NCBI RefSeq assembly: GCF_003122215.1
Contig: NZ_QEYD01000003.1
Span: forward strand, 186,001 to 250,000
Direction: 5' to 3'
DNA: 64,000 nt
Origin: Pararhodobacter marinus
Lineage (GTDB): Bacteria; Pseudomonadota; Alphaproteobacteria; Rhodobacterales; Rhodobacteraceae
Numbering within the stretch: the stretch's first letter is position 1; every line of letters begins with the position of its first letter. Shown in pieces: positions 20,460 through 51,060 of this stretch. The notes below the pieces were generated by a model. That model did no database searches, was not told the DNA's origin, and saw nothing but the letters and a program-made list of their open reading frames with translations. Both the position numbers and the translations under genes were made by a program.

Positions 20460-21085
20460 AACGGCGGGGGCCAGGGGCAACGAGGGCCGAGGCCCGAAAC
20501 GGCAAGGGTCCGCGCTTGTGGAAGCGTGTGGGAGCTGACCGCGTAACAGCCCGCCCCTCTGACGTTTGAAGTGAGGCTCGCATAGAAGGCTTGGACCTCC
20601 GAGGCACAGACCTTTTAGGGAACGGCCCCATAAGCGGCAAAACCCGTGAGACGGTAGGTCAGCGCGGAATGCCTCCCGCGCGACCGGGCGTGTAGCGGAT
20701 TGAACCCGCCCGATCCCCGGCCTGCGGGAACCGGCATGGCCGCGATTCGACCTGAACGCCGGATCTCCGGGTTCGCCTCAGGTCCGCAGGCCCACAAGAT
20801 CATCCTGCGCCGTGGCACACCTTACACCTGCAAGACCTTTGCCCGCCATGTCGCTTGCGCCCTCGAGATGCCGGCGCCGAAGCCAAGGCGGGCCTCTGGG
20901 CCGGTCTGTCGCCCCTTTGGCGTACCGCTCGTGGCGATGCCTCTGCCCGTTCATTTCCAGGTTCCGGTCCGGCAAGCCCGGCCCGGTGTCTCGCCCCCTC
21001 CCCCCTTCATCGGAAAAACCCAGGCAACCGCCTCAGGCACAGGCGACCGCCCCTTCTCCCCTTCTCGAACGCAACCGGTCCGGCA
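20460..21085. other. 626-bp gap with no recognised gene
   Basis: I find no ORF with plausible codon use or similarity, no terminator, and no tRNA, SRP RNA, tmRNA or RNase P signature. The stretch 20560-20700 is less GC-rich than its flanks and contains several short inverted segments (for example ATTGAACCCGCC near 20699), so a small RNA or decayed gene is possible but unsupported. It lies between lipA and the end of the convergent MarR-type gene. Confidence 0.5.
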
Positions 21086-21604
21086 TCAGTAGATATAGCG
21101 GATCTGGTCTGACCAATACCGTTCCATCCGCTTCAGGATCGCGTTGATCTGTTCCAATGCCTCGCCATCCACGACGCCTTTGGCGACCAGTCCTTCGGCA
21201 TGGCGCAGGAACAGATCGGCCACCACGCGCCGGACCTCGTGCCCGCGCCGGGTCAGCCGGACCCGCACCGAGCGGCGGTCGATTTCGCACCGCGCGTGGT
21301 GCATGTAGTCGTTTTCCACCAGCTTCTTCAGATTGTACGAGACGTTCGAGCCCTGGTAGTAGCCGCGGCTCTTCAACTCTCCCGCCGTCACCTCGTTATC
21401 GCCGATATTGAACAAGAGCAGCGCCTGCACCGCGTTGATATCGAGTATCGCAAGGCGCTCGAACTCGTCCTTGATCACGTCCAGAAGCAGCCGGTGCAAC
21501 CGTTCCACCAGCGCCAGCGATTCGAGATAGCGCGGCAGCAAAGCGGACGGGTCGAAGCTGTCTGCTGTCGCGGGCGCGTTTCTGACATGGGTATGAAAGC
21601 TCAT
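21086..21604 (-). CDS. MarR-family winged-helix regulator (LdtR-like)
   Basis: 172 aa from the ATG at 21604 (GGAGAGGCGA upstream). The winged helix spans about residues 45-120: LDINAVQALLLFNIGDNEVTAGEL, then SRGYYQGSNVSYNLKKLVE as recognition helix, and the wing RSVRVRLTRRG. The YYQGSNVSYNLKKL signature resembles the LdtR subgroup known from Rhizobiales and Rhodobacterales. It is divergent from the secreted-protein gene at 21785, so it could control that gene, but no operator was identified. Confidence 0.85.
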   Translation of the reverse strand: MSFHTHVRNAPATADSFDPSALLPRYLESLALVERLHRLLLDVIKDEFERLAILDINAVQALLLFNIGDNEVTAGELKSRGYYQGSNVSYNLKKLVENDYMHHARCEIDRRSVRVRLTRRGHEVRRVVADLFLRHAEGLVAKGVVDGEALEQINAILKRMERYWSDQIRYIY

Positions 21605-21726
21605 TCGCCTCTCCGGCCGGGGATACGCGGCGACTTTGCCAGACAAATTGCAAAGACCGGGTTAAGGCCCGGATTTTCGACGCTCGCCCGATACGCGGCT
21701 GTGACCGGGCCCCCGCGAACAGCCCG

Positions 21727-21756
21727 TTGACCGCGCGAGATTTTGCTGTGTATCAC
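21727..21756 (+). promoter_or_regulatory. Candidate sigma70-type promoter for the 21785 gene
   Basis: TTGACC (21727-21732) and TATCAC (21751-21756) are separated by 18 bp. A start near 21763 would leave a leader of about 22 nt before the ATG. The match is fair only (-10 with 4 of 6). Confidence 0.4.
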
Positions 21757-21784
21757 TCGGACGGTTTCAACAAAGGACCTCCCG

Positions 21785-22249
21785 ATGACCCCCCTGTTTC
21801 GTAACACGTTCGCCGCGGCGCTGATCGTCTCCCTGCCCGCTTTCGCCCAGGCGATGTGCCCGAGCTACCAGCAAAGCGGTGCCGCGCTCAGCTATGACGC
21901 CGAGCAGGCCTATGTGCCGCAATCGACCACCGTTATCGCCGGTGGCGACCTCGATCTTTCCTCCTGCGCCGAGATTCCGGGCACGGGCTATGTCATCGAG
22001 AATCCGGATTTCACGATGCAATACGACGCGCTCGGCATGGGGCGCGCGCTGGAAATCCGTGTGGACGGCGATTGCGACACCGTGCTTCTGGTGAACACCG
22101 CTTCGGGCGAATGGCTGTTCAACGATGACGCGATGGAGATGAACCCGGCGCTGCGCATCGAAAACGCCGCCTCGGGCCAGTACGACATCTGGGTCGGCAC
22201 CTATGGCACCGAGACCTGCGAAGCCACGATGACGGTCGAGACGTTCTGA
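21785..22249 (+). CDS. Secreted single-domain protein of the DCDT/FNDD/YDIWxGTY family
   Basis: 154 aa. The signal peptide ends AFAQA before MCPSY, giving an exported protein. The mature part is one module: CPSY near the start, AGGDLDLSSC, DFTMQYDALGMGR, DCDTVLLVN, EWLFNDD and GQYDIWVGTYG, ending with a fourth Cys and a VETF tail. Four Cys suggest two disulfides. The Asp/Asn-rich LLVN-W-FNDD core recalls bacterial pre-peptidase C-terminal (PPC) beta-sandwich domains, but no protease is attached. A two-module paralogue follows at 22437 and a one-module relative is at 40868. Function unknown. Confidence 0.8.
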   Translation: MTPLFRNTFAAALIVSLPAFAQAMCPSYQQSGAALSYDAEQAYVPQSTTVIAGGDLDLSSCAEIPGTGYVIENPDFTMQYDALGMGRALEIRVDGDCDTVLLVNTASGEWLFNDDAMEMNPALRIENAASGQYDIWVGTYGTETCEATMTVETF

Positions 22250-22277
22250 CCGGCCCGCGGACCGCAACCCACCATCG

Positions 22278-22305
22278 GGAAAGACCGCCTGCGGGCGGTC
22301 TTTCC
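22278..22305 (+). terminator. Strong hairpin after the 21785 gene
   Basis: Perfect 12-bp arms GGAAAGACCGCC and GGCGGTCTTTCC with loop TGCG. No long T-run follows, but T residues lie within the descending arm, and the hairpin starts 28 nt after the stop codon. Confidence 0.7.
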
Positions 22306-22436
22306 ATGTCCGACGGGCAGATTGTTGCAATCCTCTCACCAAGTGATGAGCCCCCCGGGCGGGTCTAATATCTTGACTGACCGCGCGGATGACTCCACCC
22401 TCGGGCGCGCATCGCAGTTCATTTCAGGAGCAAACC

Positions 22437-23396
22437 ATGTCAATTTACCACCATTGGAAAAACACTTTCAGGATCGCCGCGGCCGGAACGGCCATGAGCC
22501 TGGCTTTCGCCGGCAGCGCCATGGCCCAGCAATGCCCCGACTGGCAGCTTGGCGGGATCCCGATCACCACGGATTCCGAGACCGCCTGGGTTCCGCAACA
22601 ATACCCGCTCTTCGCCGGTGGCGGGCTTGACCTCGCGGCCTGCTCCTCGGTCGATGGCGTCGGTCGCGTGACGCCGGCACCGAACTTCACGCTGCAATAC
22701 GACGCGCTCACGCTGGGACGCGATCTGGAATTCCGCGTCGAGACCGATTGCGACACCACGCTTCTGATCAACGATTCGACCGGCGCATGGCACTTCAACG
22801 ACGATGCGAACGGCACGCTGCAACCGGCGATCCGTCTGGCCGGCGCCCCGTCCGGGCAGTATGACATCTGGGTCGGCACCTATGGCGGCTCGTCGTGCCA
22901 GGCGACGCTGGTGGCCGAGACCTTCCCGCCCAGCGGTGGCTCGTCCGGCGGCACCCCGACCCAGCCTGCCGCGCCGGTCTGCCCCGAATGGTCGCTGGGC
23001 GGCACCGAGGTCCAGCTGACCGCCGGTGGCACCGAGACGCAGCAGACCACGGCGGGCGGCACGGTCGACCTGTTCAGCGATTCCTGCGAAATGGAAGCGC
23101 ATGGTTACGTCTCGCAGGCGCCCAACTTCTCGCTCTATTACGATCCGCAGGATCAGACCGGACCGCTGAACATCAGCGTCTCGGGCGATTGCGACACCAC
23201 GCTTCTGGTCAACGATCCGACTACCGCATGGCTCTTCAACGACGATGCCACCGATCTGCAGCCGGCGCTGCAGATCGGCGGTGCCCAGGCCGGACGCTAT
23301 GACATCTGGGTGGGCACCTTCGGCGCCCCGACCTGCTCGGCCTCGATCACGATGAGCGCGGGCAGCGCCCCGGCCTCGCCGCAATCGGGCAAGTAA
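22437..23396 (+). CDS. Secreted two-domain protein of the DCDT/FNDD/YDIWxGTY family
   Basis: 319 aa from the ATG at 22437 (AGGAG upstream). The signal peptide ends GSAMA-QQ. Two tandem modules of about 125 residues are joined by a Gly/Ser/Pro/Thr linker (SGGSSGGTPTQP). Module 1 has CPDW, AGGGLDLAAC, NFTLQYDA, DCDTTLLIND, WHFNDD and GQYDIWVGTYG. Module 2 has CPEW, DSC, NFSLYYD, DCDTTLLVND, WLFNDD and GRYDIWVGTFG. Each module has four Cys. It is a paralogue of the upstream 154-aa protein and has its own terminator, so the two genes are separate transcription units. It is probably periplasmic or extracellular; function unknown. Confidence 0.82.
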   Translation: MSIYHHWKNTFRIAAAGTAMSLAFAGSAMAQQCPDWQLGGIPITTDSETAWVPQQYPLFAGGGLDLAACSSVDGVGRVTPAPNFTLQYDALTLGRDLEFRVETDCDTTLLINDSTGAWHFNDDANGTLQPAIRLAGAPSGQYDIWVGTYGGSSCQATLVAETFPPSGGSSGGTPTQPAAPVCPEWSLGGTEVQLTAGGTETQQTTAGGTVDLFSDSCEMEAHGYVSQAPNFSLYYDPQDQTGPLNISVSGDCDTTLLVNDPTTAWLFNDDATDLQPALQIGGAQAGRYDIWVGTFGAPTCSASITMSAGSAPASPQSGK

Positions 23397-23418
23397 GCCT
23401 GCCTCTGACAGACACGCG

Positions 23419-23451
23419 AAAGGCCGGGGTCTTCCCGGCCTTTTGTCTTTT
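23419..23451 (+). terminator. Terminator after the two-domain secreted protein
   Basis: A 10-bp stem AAAGGCCGGG and CCCGGCCTTT with loop GTCTT is followed by TGTCTTTTT. Confidence 0.85.
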
Positions 23452-23499
23452 TGTTCAACTTGTTACAGCCGGTCGCCGCCGCTCCGACACCCGCCCGGA

Positions 23500-25544
<2,045 letters not shown>

Positions 25545-40867: not shown

Positions 40868-41344
40868 TCAGCGTTCCGAGATCAGGATCGTGGTGTTGTG
40901 CACGCGCGAGCGGTTATAGGTGCCCGCCCAGATGTCGTACTGGCCCGAACGCGGGTTCGAGAACCGGATCAGCGGGTCAAGCCCGTTGAAATCGTCGTTG
41001 CAATACCACTGGCCCGACGGATCGTTGACCAGCAGCATCGTGTCGCCCGGCGCGCTGATATAGATCGTCAGCGGGTAGCCCCCGGCGCGGTAATGCAGGC
41101 GCCAGTCGGGCGCATTGGCGAACCAGCCACCACCCGGGCAGCCGCCACCTCCGCCGAAATGGTGATCGCCGCCCGCGCGCACCGTGCGGGTGCGCGGATC
41201 AGGCAGGAAACCGGCGTTCAGCGTGATCGAGCCGTAGGACGGGCGAAGGCTGTAATTCTGCGCCTCGGCCGTGTCGGGGGCCATGGCGGAAATCCCGGCC
41301 AGCGCCAGCGCGGCGACGGCCGCGAGTTTCAGAGTGTTGAACAT
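40868..41344 (-). CDS. Secreted protein, divergent member of the DCDT/FNDD/YDIWxGTY family
   Basis: 158 aa from the ATG at 41344 (GGAGGACACC upstream). The signal peptide ends DTAEA-QN. One module: RAGGD, ANAPDWRLHYRAG, GDTMLLVNDPSGQWYCNDD and GQYDIWAGTY, clearly the same family as 21785 and 22437. Three of the four conserved Cys are gone (including the one of DCDT, here PGDT, and the C-terminal one). A new Cys appears in WYCNDD, leaving exactly two, which could pair. A HFGGGGGCPGGG insert is Gly-rich. Function unknown. Confidence 0.78.
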   Translation of the reverse strand: MFNTLKLAAVAALALAGISAMAPDTAEAQNYSLRPSYGSITLNAGFLPDPRTRTVRAGGDHHFGGGGGCPGGGWFANAPDWRLHYRAGGYPLTIYISAPGDTMLLVNDPSGQWYCNDDFNGLDPLIRFSNPRSGQYDIWAGTYNRSRVHNTTILISER

Positions 41345-50985: not shown

Positions 50986-51060
50986 TGGTGGGCGATAACG
51001 GATTTGAACCGCTGACATCTTCGATGTGAACGAAGCGCTCTACCGCTGAGCTAATCGCCC
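50986..51060 (-). tRNA. tRNA-Val (anticodon CAC)
   Basis: 75 nt including an encoded CCA. Minus-strand sequence starts GGGCGATTAGCTCAGCGGTA. The acceptor stem GGGCGAT pairs with ATCGCCC, the D-arm is AGCTCAGCGGTAGAGC, and the anticodon stem-loop is CTTCG-TTCACAT-CGAAG, giving CAC (reads GUG). The T-arm GGTTCAAATCC is canonical, and the discriminator is A. Confidence 0.96.

Follow-up and report, generated by a model that had tools for sequence, protein, structure and literature searches.

Exported four-cysteine modules in Pararhodobacter marinus form a protein family related to the PPC domain

The window, a stretch of 64,000 nucleotides from Pararhodobacter marinus, contains two adjacent genes for small proteins with predicted Sec-type signal peptides, gene 1 (protein P0001) and gene 2 (P0002), and a further relative, P0003 (Table 1). 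Signal peptides, and the membrane segments and pilin-like parts described below, were judged by eye. The original prediction, made from the sequence, assigned one module to gene 1 and two to gene 2 (m1 and m2). This arrangement is borne out by a module HMM and by the pairwise identities of the modules (P0001/m1 53%, P0001/m2 45%, m1/m2 46%). A search with P0002 matches gene 1 at E 2.7e-47, far above chance. The modules are 126-132 aa long in the window, so the predicted size of about 125 aa was about right, and all three carry the predicted motifs and four Cys each, with M for L in the F-L-YD motif of gene 1. In the module segment of gene 1, the cysteines are residues 3, 39, 75, and 123, and the aspartates of a conserved triad are residues 76, 92, and 93. 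No catalytic domain was found by Pfam in P0001-P0003.

Table 1. Features of the module locus and its surroundings (positions in the window).
Feature	Position	Strand	Basis
LdtR-type MarR regulator P0004, neighbour	21086..21604	-	NCBIfam NF047395, 228.9 bits (cut-off 250)
Gene 1, P0001, 154 aa, secreted, single module	21785..22249	+	Translation; purine-rich stretch 5' of ATG; HMM 176.8 bits
Gene 1 Sec-type signal peptide, ending AQA	21785..21853	+	By eye
Gene 1 four-Cys PPC-like module, segment as aligned	21851..22246	+	Module alignment
GC-rich hairpin between genes 1 and 2	22278..22305	+	By eye; absent from the hairpin scan's list
Gene 2, P0002, 319 aa, secreted, two modules	22437..23396	+	Translation, module HMM
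Gene 2 Sec-type signal peptide	22437..22529	+	By eye
Gene 2 module 1 (m1), four Cys	22530..22922	+	Alignment, module HMM
Gene 2 intermodule linker, Gly/Ser/Pro-rich	22923..22976	+	Sequence
Gene 2 module 2 (m2), four Cys	22977..23354	+	Alignment, module HMM
Terminator-like hairpin with T run, 3' of gene 2	23416..23446	+	Hairpin scan
SdhE-like protein (presumed), neighbour	23500..23808	-	Upstream of ldtR, same strand, in 26/29 other ldtR loci
P0003, 158 aa, fourth copy, secreted, single module, two-Cys subfamily	40868..41344	-	Profile comparison, alignment

The GC-rich hairpin between the genes suggests that they are separate transcription units. In the stretch scanned, the hairpin scan found four terminator-like hairpins, compared to 1.6 in shuffles. 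A sigma-70 promoter scan of 21000-23600 found none, and in relatives a TTGACC/TTGACG box is seen by eye 5' of gene 1. Elsewhere in the window, about 600 bases (20460-21085) separate lipA from ldtR, compared to about 125 in the closest relative (L042). A part of this interval, 20460-20700, looks 6S-like but found no Rfam support, and the whole of 20460-21085 has no Rfam match at gathering score. Rfam places a tRNA gene at 50989-51060 on the minus strand.

P0001 and P0002 have weak database matches only, with best E values of 0.13 in Pfam and 0.025 in NCBIfam. Neither database gives a confident match of these two proteins to a characterised enzyme or to an unrelated known fold. Across 104 aligned four-Cys modules, the best Pfam match is PLipase_C_C (E 0.0027; nine members at E<=1), and Pfam PPC is found in fewer, three of the 104 at E<=1 (best 0.063). 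None of the four-Cys modules tested reaches the PPC (PF04151) gathering cut-off of 25.9 bits. In NCBIfam, the best match of these modules is 0.0044 in one member, and FDP_fam appears in three (best 0.014). PHROGs gave no match for five proteins, the four-Cys profile found nothing in the PDB at E<=10, and a literature search of open-licence papers returned no description of the family among the matches listed. The prediction of a secreted family outside the known entries thus stands, as no Pfam or NCBIfam entry was found for the single module or for the proteins.

The same prediction noted a likeness to the core of PPC (pre-peptidase C-terminal) domains, and here profile comparison is informative. 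A PPC alignment was made from ten segments above the Pfam cut-off, out of 17 matches, taken from 40 relatives. In hhalign, the four-Cys profile aligns with these PPC segments with a probability of 88.5 and an E value of 2.7e-6 over the LLVN...DD...G-Y core, and the profile of a sister group with two cysteines does so with a probability of 85.8 and an E value of 5.3e-6. Within this sister group, Pfam PPC matches 20 of 34 segments at E<=1 (best 5.7e-7). The LCCL domain served as a control: the four-Cys and LCCL profiles gave E 0.32 and the LCCL and PPC profiles 0.0081. Single-pair values of about 0.01 therefore arise by chance, yet they are still more than a thousand-fold above the E values of the PPC tests. 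The modules and PPC also share, in the same register, an Asp before strand D, the DD after the next strand, and a G-x-Y, and both occur in exported proteins. The four-Cys modules differ in having four conserved cysteines and a conserved N-terminal CP...AGG...C part that lies outside of the aligned core. By these profile comparisons, the family is homologous to PPC, yet by score it is not a member of Pfam PPC. It is a relative of a known PPC-type domain, with no entry found in Pfam or NCBIfam, and not a new kind of domain.

The predicted fourth copy, P0003, is a true relative (E 8.7e-16 in the search of the own assembly with P0002), but the claim of four cysteines in each copy fails for it, because P0003 belongs to the two-Cys branch. 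Its two cysteines are placed elsewhere, in GGGGGC and WYCNDD, and it is without the CP and CDT motifs. Against Pfam PPC, P0003 reaches E 0.011 and 17.0 bits, under the cut-off of 25.9, and P0001 and P0002 have no PPC match. The four-Cys branch of this genome consists of P0001, P0002, P0005, and P0007, and its conserved motifs are C-P, A-G-G, C, P-D, C-D-x-x-L-L, W-x-x-x-D-D, G-x-x-D-x-W-x-G, and C. The two-Cys branch has the pattern P-x-Y-G...G-F-x-P-D-P...A-G-G...C-x-G...D-T-T-L...W-x-C-x-D-D. On alignment and profile evidence, P0003 fits this separate subfamily, which also includes relatives from other Alphaproteobacteria. The two profiles align over 125 columns with an E value of 1.3e-35, which places both branches in the same superfamily. 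The two-Cys relatives are nonetheless distinguished by one cysteine lying within W-x-C-x-DD and by the N-terminal P-x-YG...GF-PDP motif. A further relative on a Tistrella mobilis plasmid (NC_017957.2, 98706-99125), 43.6% identical to a two-Cys segment, is annotated as 'peptidase S1'. Pfam finds no trypsin family in P0001-P0003 or in the 34 two-Cys segments, and because of the latter the Tistrella label looks wrong; at least one sister protein therefore bears a misleading peptidase label.

In the PDB, the best match of the two-Cys profile is 1wmd (E 0.044), which we take to be the KP-43 subtilase, and the best match of the PPC profile is 3jqw (E 0.00034), presumably the collagen-binding domain of ColH. 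For the subtilases 1wmd and 5fax, the matched region lies in the C-terminal portion of the protease chain, and the four-Cys profile has no direct match to either.

The cysteines and the Asp triad of the modules are conserved. In 73 loci, taken from the best 80 of 484 stretches that encode relatives in a scan of named genomes, exactly four Cys are found in 208 of 210 modules; the remaining pair, in L111 and L076, are truncated at contig ends and retain three. The four cysteines presumably form two disulfides. Scoring of the triad covered the 205 modules that span nearly the whole HMM and score above 60 bits; the five dropped are the two cut by ends and one each in L084, L070, and L083. One Asp before strand D and two on strand E, with the DD placed by way of the sister and PPC profiles, are present in 203 of the 205 (L085 and L086 contain the two exceptions), and all 34 two-Cys segments likewise have the full triad. 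The module of L083 10477-12207 is divergent; it keeps four Cys and, by eye, is without the DD, and it offers a natural test of calcium dependence.

A similar three-Asp arrangement is found at a calcium site of the DeCLIC ion channel. In the N-terminal lobe of DeCLIC, Site 1 is formed by the side chains of Asp76, Asp123, and Asp124, and a Tk-SP domain has a calcium site that overlaps with it, according to PMC12664993. The two-Cys and PPC profiles separately align residues 122-124 of the lobe (6v4b) with the DD, so that the DD of the sister and PPC profiles falls on Asp123 and Asp124; the matches are weak (E 0.41 and 0.017, respectively) and cover the DD half of the site only. The equivalent of DeCLIC Asp76 was set by its position in the PPC pattern together with the description of the strands in that paper, and not by alignment. 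Two residues of the modules' triad would thus correspond, via the sister and PPC profiles, to DeCLIC calcium ligands. Unlike the modules, the DeCLIC lobe (NTD1; PDB 6v4b/6v4a) belongs to an ion channel and, according to the same paper, has inserted helices that separate its strands D and E; the four-Cys profile does not match it directly.

A search of the own assembly (4.49 Mb) with P0002 gave eight matches, which lead beyond the window to three more proteins, P0005, P0006, and P0007. P0005 combines one four-Cys module with two LCCL domains (Pfam LCCL 1e-32; Rxt3 matches the same part at 7.4e-17). P0007 is TadE-like (E 2.1e-4; 21.8 bits, just below the cut-off of 22.9) and has a C-terminal four-Cys module with a Pfam PPC score of 16.1 bits. 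P0006 is a two-Cys relative of 598 aa with PPC-like repeats that score 36.3 bits against Pfam PPC, above the cut-off. The gene directly 3' of it encodes P0008 (locus L010 6257-7609, contig C27), a trypsin-like protein (Trypsin 6.8e-13) that has an export-type N-terminus, Cys-rich repeats in its N-terminal part, and repeated C-R-W...D-x-E-C-D motifs. P0008 is possibly a protease with P0006 as a separately encoded PPC partner.

P0001 matches 53 of 295 genomes in a sample of the bacterial family at E<=1e-6. The four-Cys profile matches 67 of 292 genomes in the order sample at the same threshold, and all of the matching genomes listed are in the own family. At E<=1e-5, it matches 11 of 240 genomes in the class sample and 21 of 398 in the phylum sample, of which 11 are in the same family, nine in the same class, and one in the same phylum. 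At the loci of these last two samples that lie outside the family, every segment among the matches listed, from up to 20 loci per search, has two Cys in the aligned stretch. Among the best 80 of the 484 stretches from named genomes, the closest is from Rhodobacter sp. NTK016B (89%), followed by Pararhodobacter records. Judged by record titles, the 73 loci are mostly from Rhodobacterales (Pararhodobacter, Roseicyclus, Nioella, Paracoccus, and others), with some records titled Gammaproteobacteria, Pseudohongiella, Pseudomonadales, Rhodoferax, Sphingomonas, and Hyphomicrobiales, and many of the records are metagenome bins.

At these 73 loci, 129 ORFs hold the 210 modules: 86 ORFs have one, 19 two, 16 three, three four, four five, and one six. 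A Pfam scan covered 18 of the 129 ORFs. PPC domains are usually found appended to a secreted peptidase. In contrast, nothing is attached in P0001-P0003, and a single fused trypsin-like protease was found among the 18 scanned ORFs (L080; Trypsin_2, 5.9e-24). The description of the modules as stand-alone therefore suits genes 1 and 2 but does not extend to the two fused proteins of the own genome or to relatives, in which modules are joined to LCCL, TadE-like, kinase, pilin-like, protease, or DUF945 parts. All further counts in this paragraph refer to the same loci. An LCCL HMM, built from six LCCL segments of which four came from those same ORFs, finds this domain in 17 ORFs of ten loci, and Pfam confirms it in both of those scanned (L057 5123-7705 and L054 4749-7760). 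A single ORF, L057 5102-7705, brings together two modules, LCCL, a D-G-C Cys tail, and a stretch resembling C-type lectins (Pfam 0.033, below cut-off). DUF945 occurs in three module ORFs, two of them 94% identical. Four ORFs encode Ser/Thr kinases (Pkinase E 2.4e-29 to 4.1e-29 in four of four) with a kinase, a hydrophobic segment, a long Ala/Glu-rich stretch, and a C-terminal module, which in L076 is cut. These fusions represent one lineage, since every record involved is titled uncultured Roseicyclus and two of the ORFs share 98% identity. Eight ORFs have a pilin-like N-terminus, a low-complexity stalk, and a C-terminal module; the stalk is Asp-Pro in L075, L076, L078, L084, L086, and L094, Glu/Asp-Pro in L083, and Asn/Gly/Asp in L070. 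Pfam supports the pilin-like part weakly in L094 (Flp1_like 0.038) and not in the other four scanned. Calcium binding by the acidic stalk itself is conceivable. By pattern, six ORFs end in a tail with Cys, either D-W-C or D-G-C. At L075, a kinase fusion, a three-module gene, a one-module gene, and a stalked protein lie within about 14 kb.

The modules are under purifying selection. Compared to L042, dN/dS is 0.12 for P0001 and 0.067 for m1; compared to the more distant L043, it is 0.36 for P0001 and 0.25 for P0002, and m2 is constrained along with m1. In nine genomes including that of the window, mean identity is 65.4% between m1 modules and 60.3% between m2 modules, compared to 43.0% between m1 and m2 of the same protein. 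The two copies are therefore old and position-specific.

Taking together the observed family with its cysteines, Asp triad, purifying selection, and fusions, we propose that the modules are calcium-stabilised, Cys-stapled, non-catalytic PPC-type lobes for recognition or adhesion outside the cytoplasmic membrane, a reading whose chances we rate slightly better than even and in which the jelly-roll fold (from sequence profiles), calcium binding, and ligand binding are predicted. The modules would be a divergent branch of the PPC-type jelly-roll superfamily that is exported and acts as binding lobes beyond the membrane. The four cysteines, as two presumed disulfides, and one calcium on Asp76, Asp92, and Asp93 (segment numbering) would rigidify the lobe, and its exposed loops would then contact a ligand on the cell surface or within the matrix. 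This lobe may recur in several settings: free as a soluble bead (gene 1), strung in a row (gene 2, and up to six modules elsewhere), at the end of acidic-stalked pilin-like proteins, on Ser/Thr kinases, where it is presumed to form the outer part, and next to LCCL or a protease. Two reports on PPC offer analogies only. A PPC-bearing segment of a collagenase binds collagen, according to PMC6168687. In another protease, secretion is accompanied by removal of the PPC domains, according to PMC5821440, and because of this a binding role is not to be assumed for PPC relatives.

Other readings account for parts of the same evidence. The free modules could be periplasmic inhibitors in the manner of PliG, a small jelly-roll inhibitor of lysozyme, and block the active site of an incoming enzyme, either a lysozyme or a protease. 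The genes do encode small, Cys-bearing exported proteins, trypsin-like proteins are encoded next to family members or fused to them (P0008 after P0006, and the L080 fusion), and PMC12664993 places PliG among the closest structural neighbours of the DeCLIC lobe. However, no inhibitor family, PliG-type included, is among the Pfam matches, although a distant fold relation is possible, and neither the fusions to kinases and pilin-like stalks nor arrays of up to six modules are expected of an inhibitor, which makes this function improbable. Somewhat less so, but still unlikely, is a purely structural role, in which calcium-bridged spacers without a specific ligand reinforce the matrix of a biofilm or the surface layer. 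Such beads would fit the tandem arrays joined by Pro/Gly linkers and the acidic Asp-Pro stalks of relatives, and the conserved residues (Cys, Asp, Gly, Trp) are those of a scaffold. Array positions that are old and mutually different are unlike interchangeable spacers, though, and the module also occurs as a single C-terminal unit on kinases.

The genomic neighbourhood bears on another alternative, that the proteins respond to envelope stress under the adjacent LdtR and act in peptidoglycan remodelling. The divergent neighbour of gene 1 is indeed LdtR-like, and in relatives LdtR controls an L,D-transpeptidase and osmotic tolerance, according to PMC3999280. Furthermore, of the 73 loci chosen for their modules (best 80 of 484), 11 have ldtR next to the module gene, seven of them from records titled Pararhodobacter, and the pairing is therefore stable within the Pararhodobacter group. 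Seen from the side of the regulator, however, the association is lost: an LdtR orthologue is present in 55 of 61 family genomes, and a module lies within about 1.5 kb on each side of ldtR at one of 30 loci (kept from 56 matches), the own locus. At 26 of the 29 others, the presumed SdhE-like gene lies upstream of ldtR on the same strand, with hit ends 87-341 bases apart. Since sdhE and ldtR flank the module genes here and stand side by side in most relatives inspected, the most likely origin of the arrangement is an insertion of the module pair. A TTAAC element 5' of ldtR says nothing about the modules because it is common to 24 of the 29 module-less loci. Control by the neighbouring MarR-type gene, which the original prediction had offered as a possibility, thus finds no support, and a role in peptidoglycan remodelling under LdtR is very unlikely. 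No functional partner emerged when the ORFs of the 73 loci (best 80 of 484) were clustered. The conserved neighbours in L075 and L085, viewed by eye, are housekeeping genes, which we take to encode trigger factor, ribosomal proteins S6/L9, and FabD/FabG.

Recognition or adhesion by PPC-type lobes allows a bolder extension, which we consider possible but doubtful. A plug-in, calcium-set recognition head could be a shared surface code in Rhodobacterales, used by a kinase sensor, a stalked pilin-like tip, and free beads, as encoded together at L075, where soluble modules could either present to the kinase the ligand that it reads or compete with that ligand. Given the fusions, calcium dependence can be tested, and a ligand sought, directly with a protein of 130 residues. 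Among the genomes sampled from this large environmental family of bacteria, about one in five encodes the surface module, yet no entry for it was found in Pfam or NCBIfam. The fusions suggest one binding head common to signalling, adhesion, and secretion, and the surface code, if true, would serve the recognition of kin, host, or substrate.
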